From: Bolinopsis microptera
Taxonomy: Eukaryota; Ctenophora; Tentaculata; Lobata; Bolinopsidae
Direction of reading: 5' to 3'
Assembly (NCBI RefSeq): GCF_026151205.1
Contig: NC_087077.1
Coordinates: forward strand, 1,550,001 to 1,614,000
DNA length: 64,000 bases
Position 1 is the stretch's first letter; the number at the start of each line of letters is the position of its first letter. This document shows, in pieces, positions 50,644-64,000 of this stretch. Position numbers and translations under genes: made by a program. The notes under the pieces were generated by a model. It made no database searches. It worked only from the letters and a program-made list of their open reading frames with translations, and had not been told where the DNA came from.

Positions 50644-52263
50644 ATGGCTGAAAGCGAGTCATGGTACGACATCACACTAGAAGAAGAACTAGAAAAGGAA
50701 AGAAAGAGCAGCGTGTCTTCTCTCAGTCTAATTAATGTTTCTTCTAGCAACTTCATCTTGCACGAGTCAAGACGAGGGTTTCCTGTGTTATCTCCACTAA
50801 AAGAAATAGACAGAACCCTTGAGTTGAAAGAGGAAATGTTAGCTAATGAACATTTTGAGGAAGAAATGTTATCTAAAGAGGAGATGTTGACCCCGAAGAA
50901 AACAAGGCTGGGTCCTCGGGCCTCACAGCGACACTCCTCGCATGAGGAAGACGAAAACATGGCCGCAGCAGTTAATCCTTCACCCAGGAGGAAAGTTAAA
51001 ATAGAGATGGTGGAAGGATCTCCACTCTCTAGGGATACAAACTGCCGACTAGGTCCCAGATCAGATATGGTGGAGGGATCTCCAGTCTCCAGGAATGTGA
51101 AGAGCAGGTTAGGTCCCAGAGCTGCGAGTAGACATGGTGCCGTGACACCAGAACATATTGGAAACAAGAGGCACTTTGCTCGGGACTCTCCCCGAGCCTC
51201 CTCGTGGGACTCCCCTCAACGTGACACAGATCACAAGGACAAAAGACACAGAGTGGGCACACCAACCCGAGACAGAGGCACACCAAACCAAGACAGACAT
51301 ATCTTCAGTACACCAGAGCCTATCAGGAACATCAAGAAGAGAGACAACGGCAAGTTCAAGACTCCAAACTCAGATTCCAGGTTGTACACCAAAAAGAGCC
51401 AGACTAACAGAGACCGGTTATCAGGAGCTGGCAAGGACTTGTTTGGTAATACCCGGAAGAGAGGAAAGAGTGAGAGCGTTAAAGAAAACGACGAGCCACT
51501 CAAGGCGTTGACAGAGGAACAAATAGCAAAACGTGAAAAACAGGTGCTGTATGGCAAAGTAACAGACGGTTACCAGAACTACAAGTCTATCATTCCCAAG
51601 GGTTTGAGGAACATCAGGGACCCCGCAACCCCCAGGAAGGATTATCCGTACAGTAAGCGTTGTTGGGATGGGTTGGTGCGCAGTTGGAGACGTAAGCTTC
51701 ATGAGTGGGATGAACCTAGTGTCGCGCTGGGTCTCCGTGCGGCGTACACTAAAAACAACAAAGATCTGAAAGACAGTGGTTTAGTTAACAATGCAGGTGA
51801 ACTGGTCATGTTCACCTCCTCCGAACCTGCAGAGGAAACAAACGAGACACCAGAAGAAGAAGAACCAGTATCCCAACCAGCTGAGCCCGCCACCTGGGAC
51901 ATCCCCCAGTTTCGGTACCCAGCTGAGGACGACACACAAAGCCAGGACAGTGAGTACACCAGGCTGCTGGGCAACAAGGATGATGAGGACGACACACAAA
52001 GCCAGGACAGTGAGTACACCAGGCTGCTGGGCAACAAGGATGAGGACGACACACAAAGCCAGGACAGTGAGTACACCAGGCTGCTGGGCAACAAAGATGA
52101 TTTCCCTGATGACTCGGACGACTCAGACGGCTCATATCATCTGTCACAGGACAGCCATCTGAACGAGGAGCTGTCCCAGGAGGGGGAGATGATGGATTGC
52201 GAGGATGAGACTGGAATGAGAGTTGGGGATCAGGAGTCTTGTAATCGCACTACTGTTTGTTAG
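50644..52263 (+). CDS. SLBP: Histone stem-loop-binding protein
   Basis: One coding exon, 539 residues. The RNA-binding domain lies at about 296-360: KREKQVLYGKVTDGYQNY, IPKGLR, then TPRK (phosphorylated TPNK in vertebrates) and YSKRCWDGLVRSWRRKLHEW. SLBP binds the 3' stem-loop of replication-dependent histone mRNAs and directs their processing, export and translation. The N-terminal half is low-complexity, with repeated RLGPR motifs (four) and SP/TP sites, which suit cyclin-dependent kinase control. The C-terminus carries three tandem 19-20-residue repeats (DDTQSQDSEYTRLLGNKD) followed by an acidic tail. It is about twice the human length (270). The start is the first ATG after the splice acceptor at 50640. 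Orthology is firm on the binding domain. Confidence 0.9.
   Translation: MAESESWYDITLEEELEKERKSSVSSLSLINVSSSNFILHESRRGFPVLSPLKEIDRTLELKEEMLANEHFEEEMLSKEEMLTPKKTRLGPRASQRHSSHEEDENMAAAVNPSPRRKVKIEMVEGSPLSRDTNCRLGPRSDMVEGSPVSRNVKSRLGPRAASRHGAVTPEHIGNKRHFARDSPRASSWDSPQRDTDHKDKRHRVGTPTRDRGTPNQDRHIFSTPEPIRNIKKRDNGKFKTPNSDSRLYTKKSQTNRDRLSGAGKDLFGNTRKRGKSESVKENDEPLKALTEEQIAKREKQVLYGKVTDGYQNYKSIIPKGLRNIRDPATPRKDYPYSKRCWDGLVRSWRRKLHEWDEPSVALGLRAAYTKNNKDLKDSGLVNNAGELVMFTSSEPAEETNETPEEEEPVSQPAEPATWDIPQFRYPAEDDTQSQDSEYTRLLGNKDDEDDTQSQDSEYTRLLGNKDEDDTQSQDSEYTRLLGNKDDFPDDSDDSDGSYHLSQDSHLNEELSQEGEMMDCEDETGMRVGDQESCNRTTVC
51925..52098 (+). repeat. Three 57-60-bp tandem repeats in SLBP
   Basis: Nearly perfect copies encode DDTQSQDSEYTRLLGNKD three times; the first carries an extra Asp codon before the next copy. 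The third-base positions match as well, so the duplication is recent. Confidence 0.9.
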
Positions 52264-59695: not shown

Positions 59696-62600
59696 ATGGA
59701 ATGTCTAGTTATTGGATGTTCTGGTGTCGGCAAATCGACTCTGTTAAACAGGTTAGCCAACATTTTATCTACCACCTAATAGCCTATCCACGTGGATCAA
59801 TTTTTTGATTTTCCTGAAAGTTGTTTGAAACTGACTAAATTTGACTAAACGCCACTTTCTTCAGACTAAGTGCCGAGGATACTCCCTCTACTCCAGTGCT
59901 ACCAGTCCTTACACCCACTGTTGGAAGTAATGTTAAAGATGTGCCCTTCTCTAAACGGAAATGTATCCGTCTCCGTGAGGTTCGTGTTATTTTAGCTGGT
60001 TAGATTTACTTGCTGATAAGTAGAATTGACTCTGGTGAAGTTAACTATTAACTAAGGTTAGACTAAACTGCACGACACTCTAGCCTTGTATTGAGCCACT
60101 CTTCCCCTGTAATTTAACCTTTTTGCATGACTATAAACGTTTCCCAACGTGTGCCCCTTGTTTCAATTATAATTAACCTCCAGGTGAGTGGATCTCTGAG
60201 ACAAACCTGGTCGCAATATTACTCCGACTCAAAAGCTGTGATATTCCTTTTGGATATGACAAATAGAGCACAGGTGAGCCTACCTGATATTTTACGTTCT
60301 TGATAAATCCTGTGACACGTTAGAAGCATCTAAATTATTTATCTTAATTATTGAGGGGGGGGGGGGGGGGGGTCCAAGGGGAACTTTGGGGAACTTTGGG
60401 AAAGTCCCCCAAGATTTCTAAGGTTCCCCAAAAAAAAGTTCCCCAAAACTCCCCAAAATTCCCCAAAATTATTCAAAATTATTCAAAATTATTCAAAATT
60501 TCTCTAATATACATTAATACCCATTAATGTTAACATGTATGTTATTATTAGGTATAATCTTAACTTACTTGTTGATACTTGCAGCATGATAATTGTTTTG
60601 GCATAATTATTTTTTTGGGGAACTTTGGGGAATTTTGGGGAACTTTCTGAAGTTCCCCAAAAAAAAGTTCCCCAAAATTCCCCAAAATTATTTGTTTCAT
60701 TGATAATTTTTTGGGGAACTTTGGGAAAGTCCCCCAGGTTTCCTGAAGTTCCCCAAAAAAAAGTTCCCCAAAACTCCCCAAAGTTCCCCTTGGACCCCCC
60801 CCCCCCCTATTGAATATCTGTGGTGGTTGTGAAATTTTACAATTCAACATTAAATTAACACTTTTAAATAAAACCTCGATAACGATATACTGAAACAGTT
60901 GGTTGCAGTCCAATCAAAGCCAATGATACATAGAATAGTTGGAGCAAAATCTTGATGTTGAGATTACTTTTTTATTGTATTACAACTCACCTAAACACGA
61001 TGATACACATTCCCCGATTTCAGCTGAGTACCAGCCAGGTTGAGCTGCTGAAACTGTTGAGTAATCCTGTTATCAATTTCAGCTGAGTACCAGCCAGGTT
61101 GAGCTTCTGAATCTGTTGAGTAATCCTGTTATCAATTTCAGCTGAGTACCAGCCAGGTTGAGCTGCTGAATCTGTTGAGTAATCCTGTTATCTATTTCAG
61201 CTGAGTACCAGCCAGGTTGAGCTGCTAAAACTGTTGAGTAATCCTGTTATCAATTTCAGCTGAGTACCAGCCAGGTTGAGCTGCTGAAACTGTTGAGTAA
61301 TCCTGTTATCTATTTCAGCTGAGTACCAGCCAGGTTGAGCTGCTGAAACTGTTGAGTAATCCTGTTATCAATTTCAGCTGAGTACCAGCCAGGTTGAGCT
61401 GCTGAAACTGTTGAGTAATCCTGTTATCAATTTCAGCTGAGTACCAGCCAGGTTGAGCTGCTGAAACTGTTGAGTAATCCTGTTATCAATTTCAGCTGAG
61501 TACCAGCCAGGTTGAGCTGCTGAAACTGTTGAGTAATCATGTTATCTATTTCAGCTGAGTACCAGCCAGGTTGAGCTGCTGAAACTGTTGAGTAATCCTG
61601 TTATCTATTTCAGCTGAGTACCAGCCAGGTTGAGCTGCTGAAACTGTTGAGTAATCCTGTTATCTATTTCAGCTGAGTACCAGCCAGGTTGAGCTGCTGA
61701 AACTGTTGAGTAATCCTGTTATCAATTTCAGCTGAGTACCAGTCAGGTTGAGCTGCTGAAACTGTTGAGTAATCATGTTATCTATTTCAGCTGAGTACCA
61801 GCCAGGTTGAGCTGCTGAAACTGTTGAGTAATCCTGTTATCTATTTCAGCTGAGTACCAGCCAGGTTGAGCTGCTGAAACTGTTGAGTAATCCTGTTATC
61901 TATTTCAGCTGAGTACCAGCCAGGTTGAGCTGCTGAAACTGTTGAGTAATCCTGTTATCTATTTCAGCTGAGTACCAGCCAGGTTGAGCTGCTGAAACTG
62001 TTGAGTAATCCTGTTATCTATTTCAGCTGAGTACCAGCCAGGTTGAGCTGCTGAAACTGTTGAGTAATCCTGTTATCTATTTCAGCTGAGTACCAGCCAG
62101 GTTGAGCTGCTGAAACTGTTGAGTAATCCTGTTATCTATTTCAGCTGAGTACCAGCCAGGTTGAGCTGCTGAGTGCTGAAACTGTTGAGTAATCCTGTTA
62201 TCAATTTCAGCTGAGTACCAGCCAGGTTGAGCTGCTGAAACTGTTGAGTAATCCTGTTATCTATTTCAGCTGAGTACCAGCCAGGTTGAGCTGCTAAAAC
62301 TGTTGAGTAATCCTGTTATCAATTTCAGCTGAGTACCAGCCAGGTTGAGCTGCTGAAACTGTTGAGTAATCCTGTTATCTATTTCAGCTGAGTATCACCC
62401 AGGTTGAGCTGCTGAAACTGTTGAGTAATCCTGTTATCAATTTCAGCTGAGTACCAGCCAGGTTGAGCTGCTGAAACTGTTGAGTAATCCTGTTATCAAT
62501 TTCAGCTGAGTACCAGCCAGGTTGAGCTGCTGAAACTGTTGAGTAATCCTGTTATCAATTTCAGCTGAGTACCAGCCAGGTTGAGCTGCTGAAACTGTTG

Positions 62601-64000
62601 AGTAATCCTGTTATCAATTTCAGCTGAGTACCAGCCAGGTTGAGCTGGTGAAACTGTTGAGTAATCCTGTTATCAATTTCAGCTGAGTACCAGCCAGGTT
62701 GAGCTGCTGAAACTGTTGAGTAATCCTGTTATCAATTTCAGCTGAGTACCAGCCAGGTTGAGCTGCTGAAACTGTTGAGTAATCCTGTTATCAATTTCAG
62801 CTGAGTACCAGCCAGGTTGAGCTGCTGAAACTGTTGAGTAATCCTGTTATCAATTTCAGCTGAGTACCAGCCAGGTTGAGCTGCTGAAACTGTTGAGTAA
62901 TCCTGTTATCAATTTCAGCTGAGTACCAGCCAGGTTGAGCTGCTGAAACTGTTGAGTAATCCTGTTATCAATTTCAGCTGAGTACCAGCCAGGTTGAGCT
63001 GCTGAAACTGTTGAGTAATCCTGTTATCAATTTCAGCTGAGTACCAGCCAGGTTGAGCTGCTGAAACTGTTGAGTAATCCTGTTATCAATTTCAGCTGAG
63101 TACCAGCCAGGTTGAGCTGCTGAAACTGTTGAGTAATCCTGTTATCAATTTCAGCTGAGTACCAGCCAGGTTGAGCTGCTGAAACTGTTGAGTAATCCTG
63201 TTATCAATTTCAGCTGAGTACCAGCCAGGTTGAGCTGCTGAAACTGTTGAGTAATCCTGTTATCAATTTCAGCTGAGTACCAGCCAGGTTGAGCTGCTGA
63301 AACTGTTGAGTAATCCTGTTATCAATTTCAGCTGAGTACCAGCCAGGTTGAGCTGCTGAAACTGTTGAGTAATCCTGTTATCAATTTCAGCTGAGTACCA
63401 GCCAGGTTGAGCTGCTGAAACTGTTGAGTAATCCTGTTATCAATTTCAGCTGAGTACCAGCCAGGTTGAGCTGCTGAAACTGTTGAGTAATCCTGTTATC
63501 AATTTCAGCTGAGTACCAGCCAGGTTGAGCTGCTGAAACTGTTGAGTAATCCTGTTATCAATTTCAGCTGAGTACCAGCCAGGTTGAGCTGCTGAAACTG
63601 TTGAGTAATCCTGTTATCAATTTCAGCTGAGTACCAGCCAGGTTGAGCTGCTGAAACTGTTGAGTAATCCTGTTATCAATTTCAGCTGAGTACCAGCCAG
63701 GTTGAGCTGCTGAAACTGTTGAGTAATCCTGTTATCAATTTCAGCTGAGTACCAGCCAGGTTGAGCTGCTGAAACTGTTGAGTAATCCTGTTATCAATTT
63801 CAGCTGAGTACCAGCCAGGTTGAGCTGCTGAAACTGTTGAGTAATCCTGTTATCAATTTCAGCTGAGTACCAGCCAGGTTGAGCTGCTGAAACTGTTGAG
63901 TAATCCTGTTATCAATTTCAGCTGAGTACCAGCCAGGTTGAGCTGCTGACACTGTTGAGTAATCCTGTTATCAATTTCAGCTGAGTACCAGCCAGGTTGA
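59696..64000 (+). CDS. ARL16: ADP-ribosylation factor-like GTPase 16 (partial, runs off window)
   Basis: Exons 59696-59751, 59865-59979 and 60184-60273 join in phase; exon 4 begins at an acceptor at or after 61023. The product starts MECLVIGCSGVGKSTLLNRL (P-loop GCSGVGKST), then PTVGSNVKD, IRLREVSGSLRQTWSQYY and KAVIFLLDMTNRAQ, followed by LSTSQVELLKLLSNP. This parallels vertebrate ARL16, including its early P-loop and PTVGxN switch region. The usual Arf/Ras DxxGQ switch II motif is replaced by EVSGS, a known oddity of ARL16. ARL16 is a small GTPase tied to ciliary and Golgi traffic. The start of exon 4 sits inside a 59-bp tandem array, and the rest of the gene lies beyond the window. The identity is good; the exon 4 copy used is unknown. 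Confidence 0.82.
60349..60813. mobile_element. Poly-G/poly-C-ended inverted-repeat element in ARL16 intron 3
   Basis: The element 60355-60807 starts with 18 G and TCCAAGGGGAACTTTGGGGA and ends with the complement and 13 C. It is flanked by a perfect direct repeat TATTGA (60349-60354 and 60808-60813). Each arm contains several internal GGGGAACTTTGGG/TTCCCCAAAAA units, so each arm is itself self-complementary. No coding capacity. Confidence 0.75.
61022..64000 (+). repeat. 59-bp minisatellite made of an ARL16 splice acceptor and exon start
   Basis: Fifty complete units and part of a 51st, period 59 bp, with one 7-bp insertion near 62170. Each unit reads CTGAGTACCAGCCAGG onward for 45 nt (15 codons, LSTSQVELLKLLSNP) and then GTTATCAATTTCAG, a 14-nt tail that starts GT and ends AG. 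The first copy alone is preceded by a different tail (CATTCCCCGATTTCAG), presumably the original intron end. Variants (CTATTTCAG, GCTAAAACTG, GCTTCTGAATC) cluster before about 62400; later units are almost identical. Confidence 0.97.

Follow-up and report, generated by a model that had tools for sequence, protein, structure and literature searches.

The closest described counterparts of the locus treated here are the "mirage" minisatellites of amphioxus, one of which, in the Adh3 gene, was reportedly described by Canestro et al. in 2002. In the excerpts of PMC3087553 on which we draw, mirages appear as tandem repeats lying across an intron-exon boundary; in the globin gene BflGb6, the repeat combines the 3' end of an intron with the 5' part of an exon and is present in 6 and 3 copies in two haplotypes. 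The same excerpts note length instability of mirages and cite reverse transcription-PCR suggesting that regular splicing is undisturbed. We describe a 59-bp tandem array across the start of exon 4 of an ARL16-like gene of the ctenophore Bolinopsis microptera, most of it inside a 64,000-nucleotide window (the whole stretch analyzed, C6:1550001-1614000 of the 264.65-Mb assembly). The array is of an already described kind and, at 67 copies, by far exceeds in length the globin examples from amphioxus as excerpted (Adh3 copy numbers are outside this comparison). We think it probable that it represents a mirage-type boundary-spanning minisatellite in another phylum, tolerated because splicing favors the acceptor nearest to the donor of exon 4.

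As far as the excerpted descriptions of Adh3, BflGb6, and BflGb9 go, the likeness lies in a boundary-spanning tandem repeat, repeated splice signals, and an authentic copy at the array edge. At the ctenophore locus, the unit spans the boundary, splice signals are present in 67 of 67 copies, and the gene, which is intact, has its authentic exon boundary in the edge copy. The layout, an intron 3' end plus an exon 5' part, is that of BflGb6. Unlike the amphioxus mirages, however, the array is hosted by a ctenophore rather than a cephalochordate, and it differs from them in copy number (67 versus 6 and 3 in BflGb6) and in unit length (59 bp versus 150-160 bp in BflGb6 and 10-72 bp in Adh3, from the excerpts of PMC3087553). 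We found no report of boundary-spanning repeats in ctenophores in open-licence PMC text, using queries that mostly did not name ctenophores.

Because the window could be placed on C6 of the assembly, the array was traceable beyond the window edge into a downstream piece (L001, C6:1613000-1622900) that shares 1001 nt with the window; coordinates above 64000 continue the window count on the joined sequence. The array runs from 61017 to 64977, a length of 3961 nt, and ends 977 nt past the window end. For the part between 61017 and the window end, Tandem Repeats Finder (TRF) reports a period of 59, a 98% match, and 50.5 copies; for the L001 part, which ends at L001:1978 (coordinate 64977), it counts 33.5 copies. 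Given this length and the scores of the two overlapping parts (5723 and 3893), a chance origin is not at issue. On the joined sequence, we counted 67 CAG/CTGAGTA boundaries (the slash marks the splice boundary) in head-to-tail copies, from 61024 to 64925. The spacing is 59 nt in 65 of the 66 intervals and 66 nt in the remaining one, where copy 20 carries a 7-nt insertion; with acceptors so spaced, the window takes in 51 of the 67. Thus, the first-pass annotation of the window, which had proposed that a 3' splice site and exon start were amplified at least 50-fold inside ARL16, is borne out, and the array is larger than it claimed.

In each unit, the intron contributes its final 7 nt (ATTTCAG) and exon 4 of ARL16 its first 52 nt, or 17 codons and one further nucleotide. 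Units end in ATCAATTTCAG or ATCTATTTCAG, the pyrimidine tract is modest, and TTTCAG precedes the exon start in all 67 copies. The first-pass annotation had correctly recognized the exon 4 start and the CAG end, but it allotted 45 nt to the exon and 14 nt to the intron and called the end pyrimidine rich. Among the 66 complete units, 38 match the consensus exactly and 12 differ from it solely in having T for A at position 52. Copy 1 equals the consensus, and copy 67 departs from it at one shared site. Variant units are spread unevenly, with 17 of 22 in the 5' third, 3 of 22 in the middle, and 8 of 22 in the 3' third (P of 0.001 for the middle, the thirds having been picked after the order was inspected). 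The idea of a satellite with copies elsewhere finds no support: we found no such array outside ARL16 in the assembly, all 32 matches to a two-unit query lying in the ARL16 array, in a search that skipped very common words and scored only the best candidates.

Past the window, we looked for an exon 4 that differs from the unit, the finding that would speak against amplification of the exon start; copy 67 proved to be the start of the real exon 4. It runs on as GTTATCAAGGATATTCCAGTTCTCCTG into the remainder of the exon, and an intron of 171 nt then separates this exon from exon 5. Joined, exons 1 to 5 encode an intact 171-aa protein of the Arf family (Pfam Arf, 72.1 bits, E value of 5e-20), which can be aligned over almost its whole length with human ARL16 (31% identity, 85.9 bits, against a hand-entered human sequence). 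Its best relative with a solved structure is ARL1 (57.4 bits, from a different program than the ARL16 score). Judged by its sequence, the host gene is an ARF-type GTPase most like ARL16. No second ARL16 was found among nine protein matches in the assembly, five of which are exons of this gene; the four outside the locus have 25-31% identity, as for other ARFs.

The claims that a donor follows 60273, that exon 3 joins the unit in phase 0, and that reading through a unit meets TGA all hold, as does the claim that only the last copy yields the full-length protein. Splicing of exon 3 to copy 67, which reads through to the donor of exon 4, gives 171 aa, and this is true of 1 of the 67 acceptors. 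Each of the other 66 leads to a product of 102 or 107 aa, with a stop at least 170 nt before the exon 4-5 junction; use of an earlier copy lengthens exon 4 by ∼59 nt per copy, to 4075 nt for copy 1. A stop well upstream of the last junction is the usual condition for nonsense-mediated decay.

As a reference for splice signals, we used 14 of 14 attempted introns of PRPF8, resolved by homology (locus L004-L005), together with the ARL16 introns; ties in PRPF8 were settled by donor consensus, so that this set leans towards consensus donors. The PRPF8 introns span 102 to 1078 nt, and 13 of 14 are 355 nt or shorter. Donors beginning with GTT are frequent in this small sample (ARL16 introns 1, 2, and 4, or 3 of 4; 3 of 14 in PRPF8). 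With a matrix from 17 acceptors, that of exon 4 left out, array acceptors score 5.27-6.06 bits (copy 1, 6.06; others, 5.27-5.91; copy 67, 5.32), and the 18 true acceptors score 1.47-10.87 bits when each is left out in turn. By this measure, all 67 acceptors are ordinary for the genome and look usable. The branch consensus is yTnAy. When copies 1, 31, and 67 were compared, copy 1 had a full branch-like motif (CTCAC at -35) and copies 31 and 67 had 3-of-4 matches only; in 6 of the 14 PRPF8 introns compared likewise, a full match lies at -16 or further in five and only at -7 in one. These signals suggest that the native intron end, which includes the branch-like motif and a C-rich tract, lies at copy 1, and that the native exon lies at copy 67.

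Two other ways of reading the unit were dropped. The first-pass annotation had suggested that the 14-nt GT...AG tail resembles a tiny intron. This is refuted, because the first half of the tail (GTTATCA) is coding in the authentic exon 4, where it specifies V-I plus one base; the tail is also shorter than the shortest resolved PRPF8 intron (102 nt). Masking of acceptors by a hairpin was considered as well, since TTTCAGC can pair with GCTGAAA 22 nt on. All 67 acceptors are mostly paired in local folding: the probability that the AG is unpaired is 0.003-0.068 with a short span and 0.004-0.038 with a long span, and the means over 468 AGs of the region are 0.26 and 0.13, respectively. The least masked acceptor is that of copy 1 in the short span (0.068 versus 0.004 for copy 67) and that of copy 67 in the long span (0.038 versus 0.023 for copy 1), and the fold of two units is unremarkable (z of -1.14; 27 of 200 shuffles equally good). 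Hairpin masking was therefore set aside, as folding singles out no one copy. Sites of recursive splicing are acceptors followed immediately by a donor; this ratchet layout, AG/GT, was found at 0 of the 67 acceptors.

How might such an array have arisen and been tolerated? We infer that the array began with the tandem duplication of a 59-bp segment straddling the boundary of intron 3 (7 nt) and exon 4 (52 nt) and reached 67 copies through ordinary minisatellite turnover, by unequal exchange or slippage. The ancestral acceptor would thereby have been split in two, with the native end of the intron left at copy 1 and the native exon at copy 67. Under exon definition, the acceptor closest across the exon would be preferred, exon 4 having a long upstream and a short downstream intron; splicing to copy 67 would then dominate, and ARL16 is most likely functional. 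We favor copy 67 because exon 4 has this layout (4651 nt to the last acceptor, compared with 750 nt to copy 1, and 171 nt downstream) and because the gene is intact and no second copy was found. In human 3' splice-site data, as excerpted from PMC9225289, the LS class, which we read as long upstream/short downstream, mimics exon definition. Transcripts using other copies, each with an early stop, would probably be cleared by nonsense-mediated decay. The array itself may be nearly neutral. Of 20 10-kb pieces sampled at self-chosen round coordinates, 5 contain a tandem array 1 kb or longer, 2 of them with at least 90% match; long minisatellites are thus ordinary in this genome, and no special function has to be invoked for one that happens to fall on an exon boundary.

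Several observations weigh against this reading. In the excerpts of PMC9225289, human acceptors at least 20 nt apart favor the upstream one on the whole; for acceptors of comparable strength, this preference is strong when both introns are short and significantly reduced when both are long, so that the long/long class merely lessens the bias. Within the ctenophore, the short introns of PRPF8 (all but one at most 355 nt) imply that splicing in this animal may work by intron definition, in which case copy 1 would be favored. The acceptor of copy 1 is also slightly better than that of copy 67, the full branch-like motif is found only in copy 1 of the three copies compared, and copy 1 is the least masked in one of the two folding settings. 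Finally, the description of mirages, in which units within the cluster are homogenized and those at the boundaries are not, is matched only partly: the middle third is the most uniform, but copy 1 itself equals the consensus.

Competition among acceptors has been studied in other settings. NAGNAG-type tandem acceptors lie a few nucleotides apart and have a common branch site; there, too, several acceptors compete for one donor, but the ARL16 acceptors are 59 or 66 nt apart. According to the excerpts of PMC9225289, once acceptors are separated by more than 12-20 nt, the choice typically falls at the first step, and their branch sites are separate. Splice-site competition assays (Reed and Maniatis 1986, as summarized in the excerpts of PMC9225289) also place acceptors in cis for one donor. 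Unlike those constructs, the ARL16 array is natural and 67-fold, and the whole exon is on one copy only.

Two alternatives would have the upstream acceptors in regular use, and we regard both as unlikely. The array could act, as the first-pass annotation suggested, as a rheostat of poison acceptors: splicing would use many of the acceptors, decay would follow for 66 of 67, and ARL16 output would depend on the length of the array. Retention of TTTCAG in all copies with normal scores, and a premature stop long before the last junction for all but one, are consistent with such a role. The units are so alike, however, that this conservation has little power as a test, and the abundance of long minisatellites in the genome makes the array explicable without function. 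It is similarly improbable that the gene is decaying, with intron definition favoring copy 1 so that ARL16 transcripts would be largely or wholly broken and the allele a hypomorph or null. Copy 1, with its full branch-like motif and top acceptor score, would be the site so chosen, intron definition prefers upstream acceptors (excerpts of PMC9225289), and the PRPF8 introns are mostly short; yet the five exons, the remaining splice sites, and the reading frame are all intact, and the assembly yielded no second ARL16 match. That the array is a working splicing device, whose 66 decoy acceptors or 66 in-frame 15-nt LSTSQ micro-exons, unstable in number, set the level or form of ARL16 per animal or cell lineage, seems to us quite improbable.

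Use of the in-unit CAG/GTTGAG as a donor, giving 15-nt in-frame LSTSQ exons or scarless removal of units from CAG/GT to CAG/GT, is very unlikely. In its favor, splicing from the unit donor to the last acceptor preserves the reading frame in all 66 copies, the donor of unit 1 joined to the CCAG/GT of the last copy restores the exact protein, and GTT donors occur in both reference genes. The intron-gain model of Rogers, cited in the excerpts of PMC3087553, involves tandem duplication with AG/GT; the ARL16 segment also holds CCAG/GT, and a scarless intron is possible on paper. Unlike in that model, the ARL16 duplication spans an existing intron end, and both candidate sites are weak. The donor scores 3.49 bits, with only 2 of 18 true donors lower when each is left out in turn, and across the PRPF8 locus 12.5% of GT sites score as high; the CCAG/GT acceptor scores 0.39 bits, a value that 26% of AG sites attain and that lies under even the weakest true acceptor (1.47 bits). 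Moreover, adjacent copies would yield 44-nt introns, compared with a minimum of 102 nt in PRPF8.

An assembly artefact that inflated the copy number or created the whole array is very unlikely, as an array of ∼4 kb should fit within single long reads, distinct variants occur in a non-random order among the copies, a 7-nt insertion marks one of them, and the sequences on either side connect properly to one and the same gene. In favor of an artefact, the published Bolinopsis genome, if it is the one analyzed here, is, according to the excerpt of PMC10232365, a wtdbg assembly from PacBio reads with pilon polishing, and a repeat consensus can err.

Table 1. Features of the ARL16-like gene and its 59-bp array (window coordinates; numbers above 64000 continue past the window end)
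Feature	Position	Strand	Details
ARL16 exon 1	59696..59751	+	56 nt, start codon; donor CAG/GTTAGC
ARL16 exon 2	59865..59979	+	115 nt; donor GAG/GTTCGT
ARL16 exon 3	60184..60273	+	90 nt, phase 0 end; donor CAG/GTGAGC
ARL16 intron 3 stretch before the array	60274..61016	+	ends CTCACCTAAACACGATGATACACATTCCCCG; full yTnAy branch-like motif CTCAC, -35 from first acceptor
Foldback element in intron 3	60355..60807	.	G-/C-run ends, 44-nt terminal inverted repeats 93% complementary; resembles a miniature inverted-repeat transposable element
In-window part of the 59-bp array	61017..64000	+	51 acceptors; TRF, boundary count
First ATTTCAG	61017..61023	+	7-nt intronic part of the unit; first, presumably ancestral acceptor
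First copy of the 52-nt exon 4 start	61024..61075	+	LSTSQVELLKLLSNPVI + 1 nt
Weak donor-like CAG/GTTGAG, first copy	61039..61044	+	15 nt into each exon copy
Copy 20	62145..62210	+	sole complete unit of other length (66 nt, 7-nt insertion)
ARL16 exon 4	64925-65098		beyond window; 174 nt, starts at copy 67; donor AAG/GTTTGA
ARL16 exon 5	65270-65350		beyond window

Other repeats were seen along the way. High-identity minisatellites with units of 91 and 79 bp and lengths of 0.7-2.8 kb occur at L024:5638-9238 and L015:1-1441, in arbitrarily picked pieces of the genome. In the window itself, positions 51924-52101 hold three copies of a 57/60-bp repeat that we read as possibly coding (EDDTQSQDSEYTRLLGNKD) and that contains GTGAGT strings. 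Repetition on a larger scale is found among photoprotein genes: an aequorin query gave 55 matches, 51 of which span query residues 16-191 in a single open frame. They lie on C1, C2, C3, C5, and C13, with single ones on C9 and C10, and many are arranged head to tail with a period of ∼0.94-1.03 kb. One copy matches the ctenophore photoproteins berovin (E value of 2e-124) and mnemiopsin (1e-121), with jellyfish photoproteins following from 1e-18; the slightly better score of berovin, a Beroe protein, may come from comparing different paralogs. COX1 had no match in the assembly, and neither had the nuclear-receptor zinc finger (PF00105), which also gave no match in its 14 control genomes, so that this negative carries no weight as a phylum marker.

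The ARL16 array extends a rarely noticed type of amphioxus repeat to a very distant animal group, at a high copy number, and gene models across such arrays are prone to misannotation. Its interest lies mainly in its being a natural splice-site competition experiment, which tests how the splicing machinery chooses among many near-identical sites. Features that are usually joined have been parted here, the native intron end being at copy 1 and the native exon, with its nearby donor, at copy 67. The copy that wins in the animal's RNA would therefore directly tell whether the splice sites of ARL16 are paired across the intron or across the exon.

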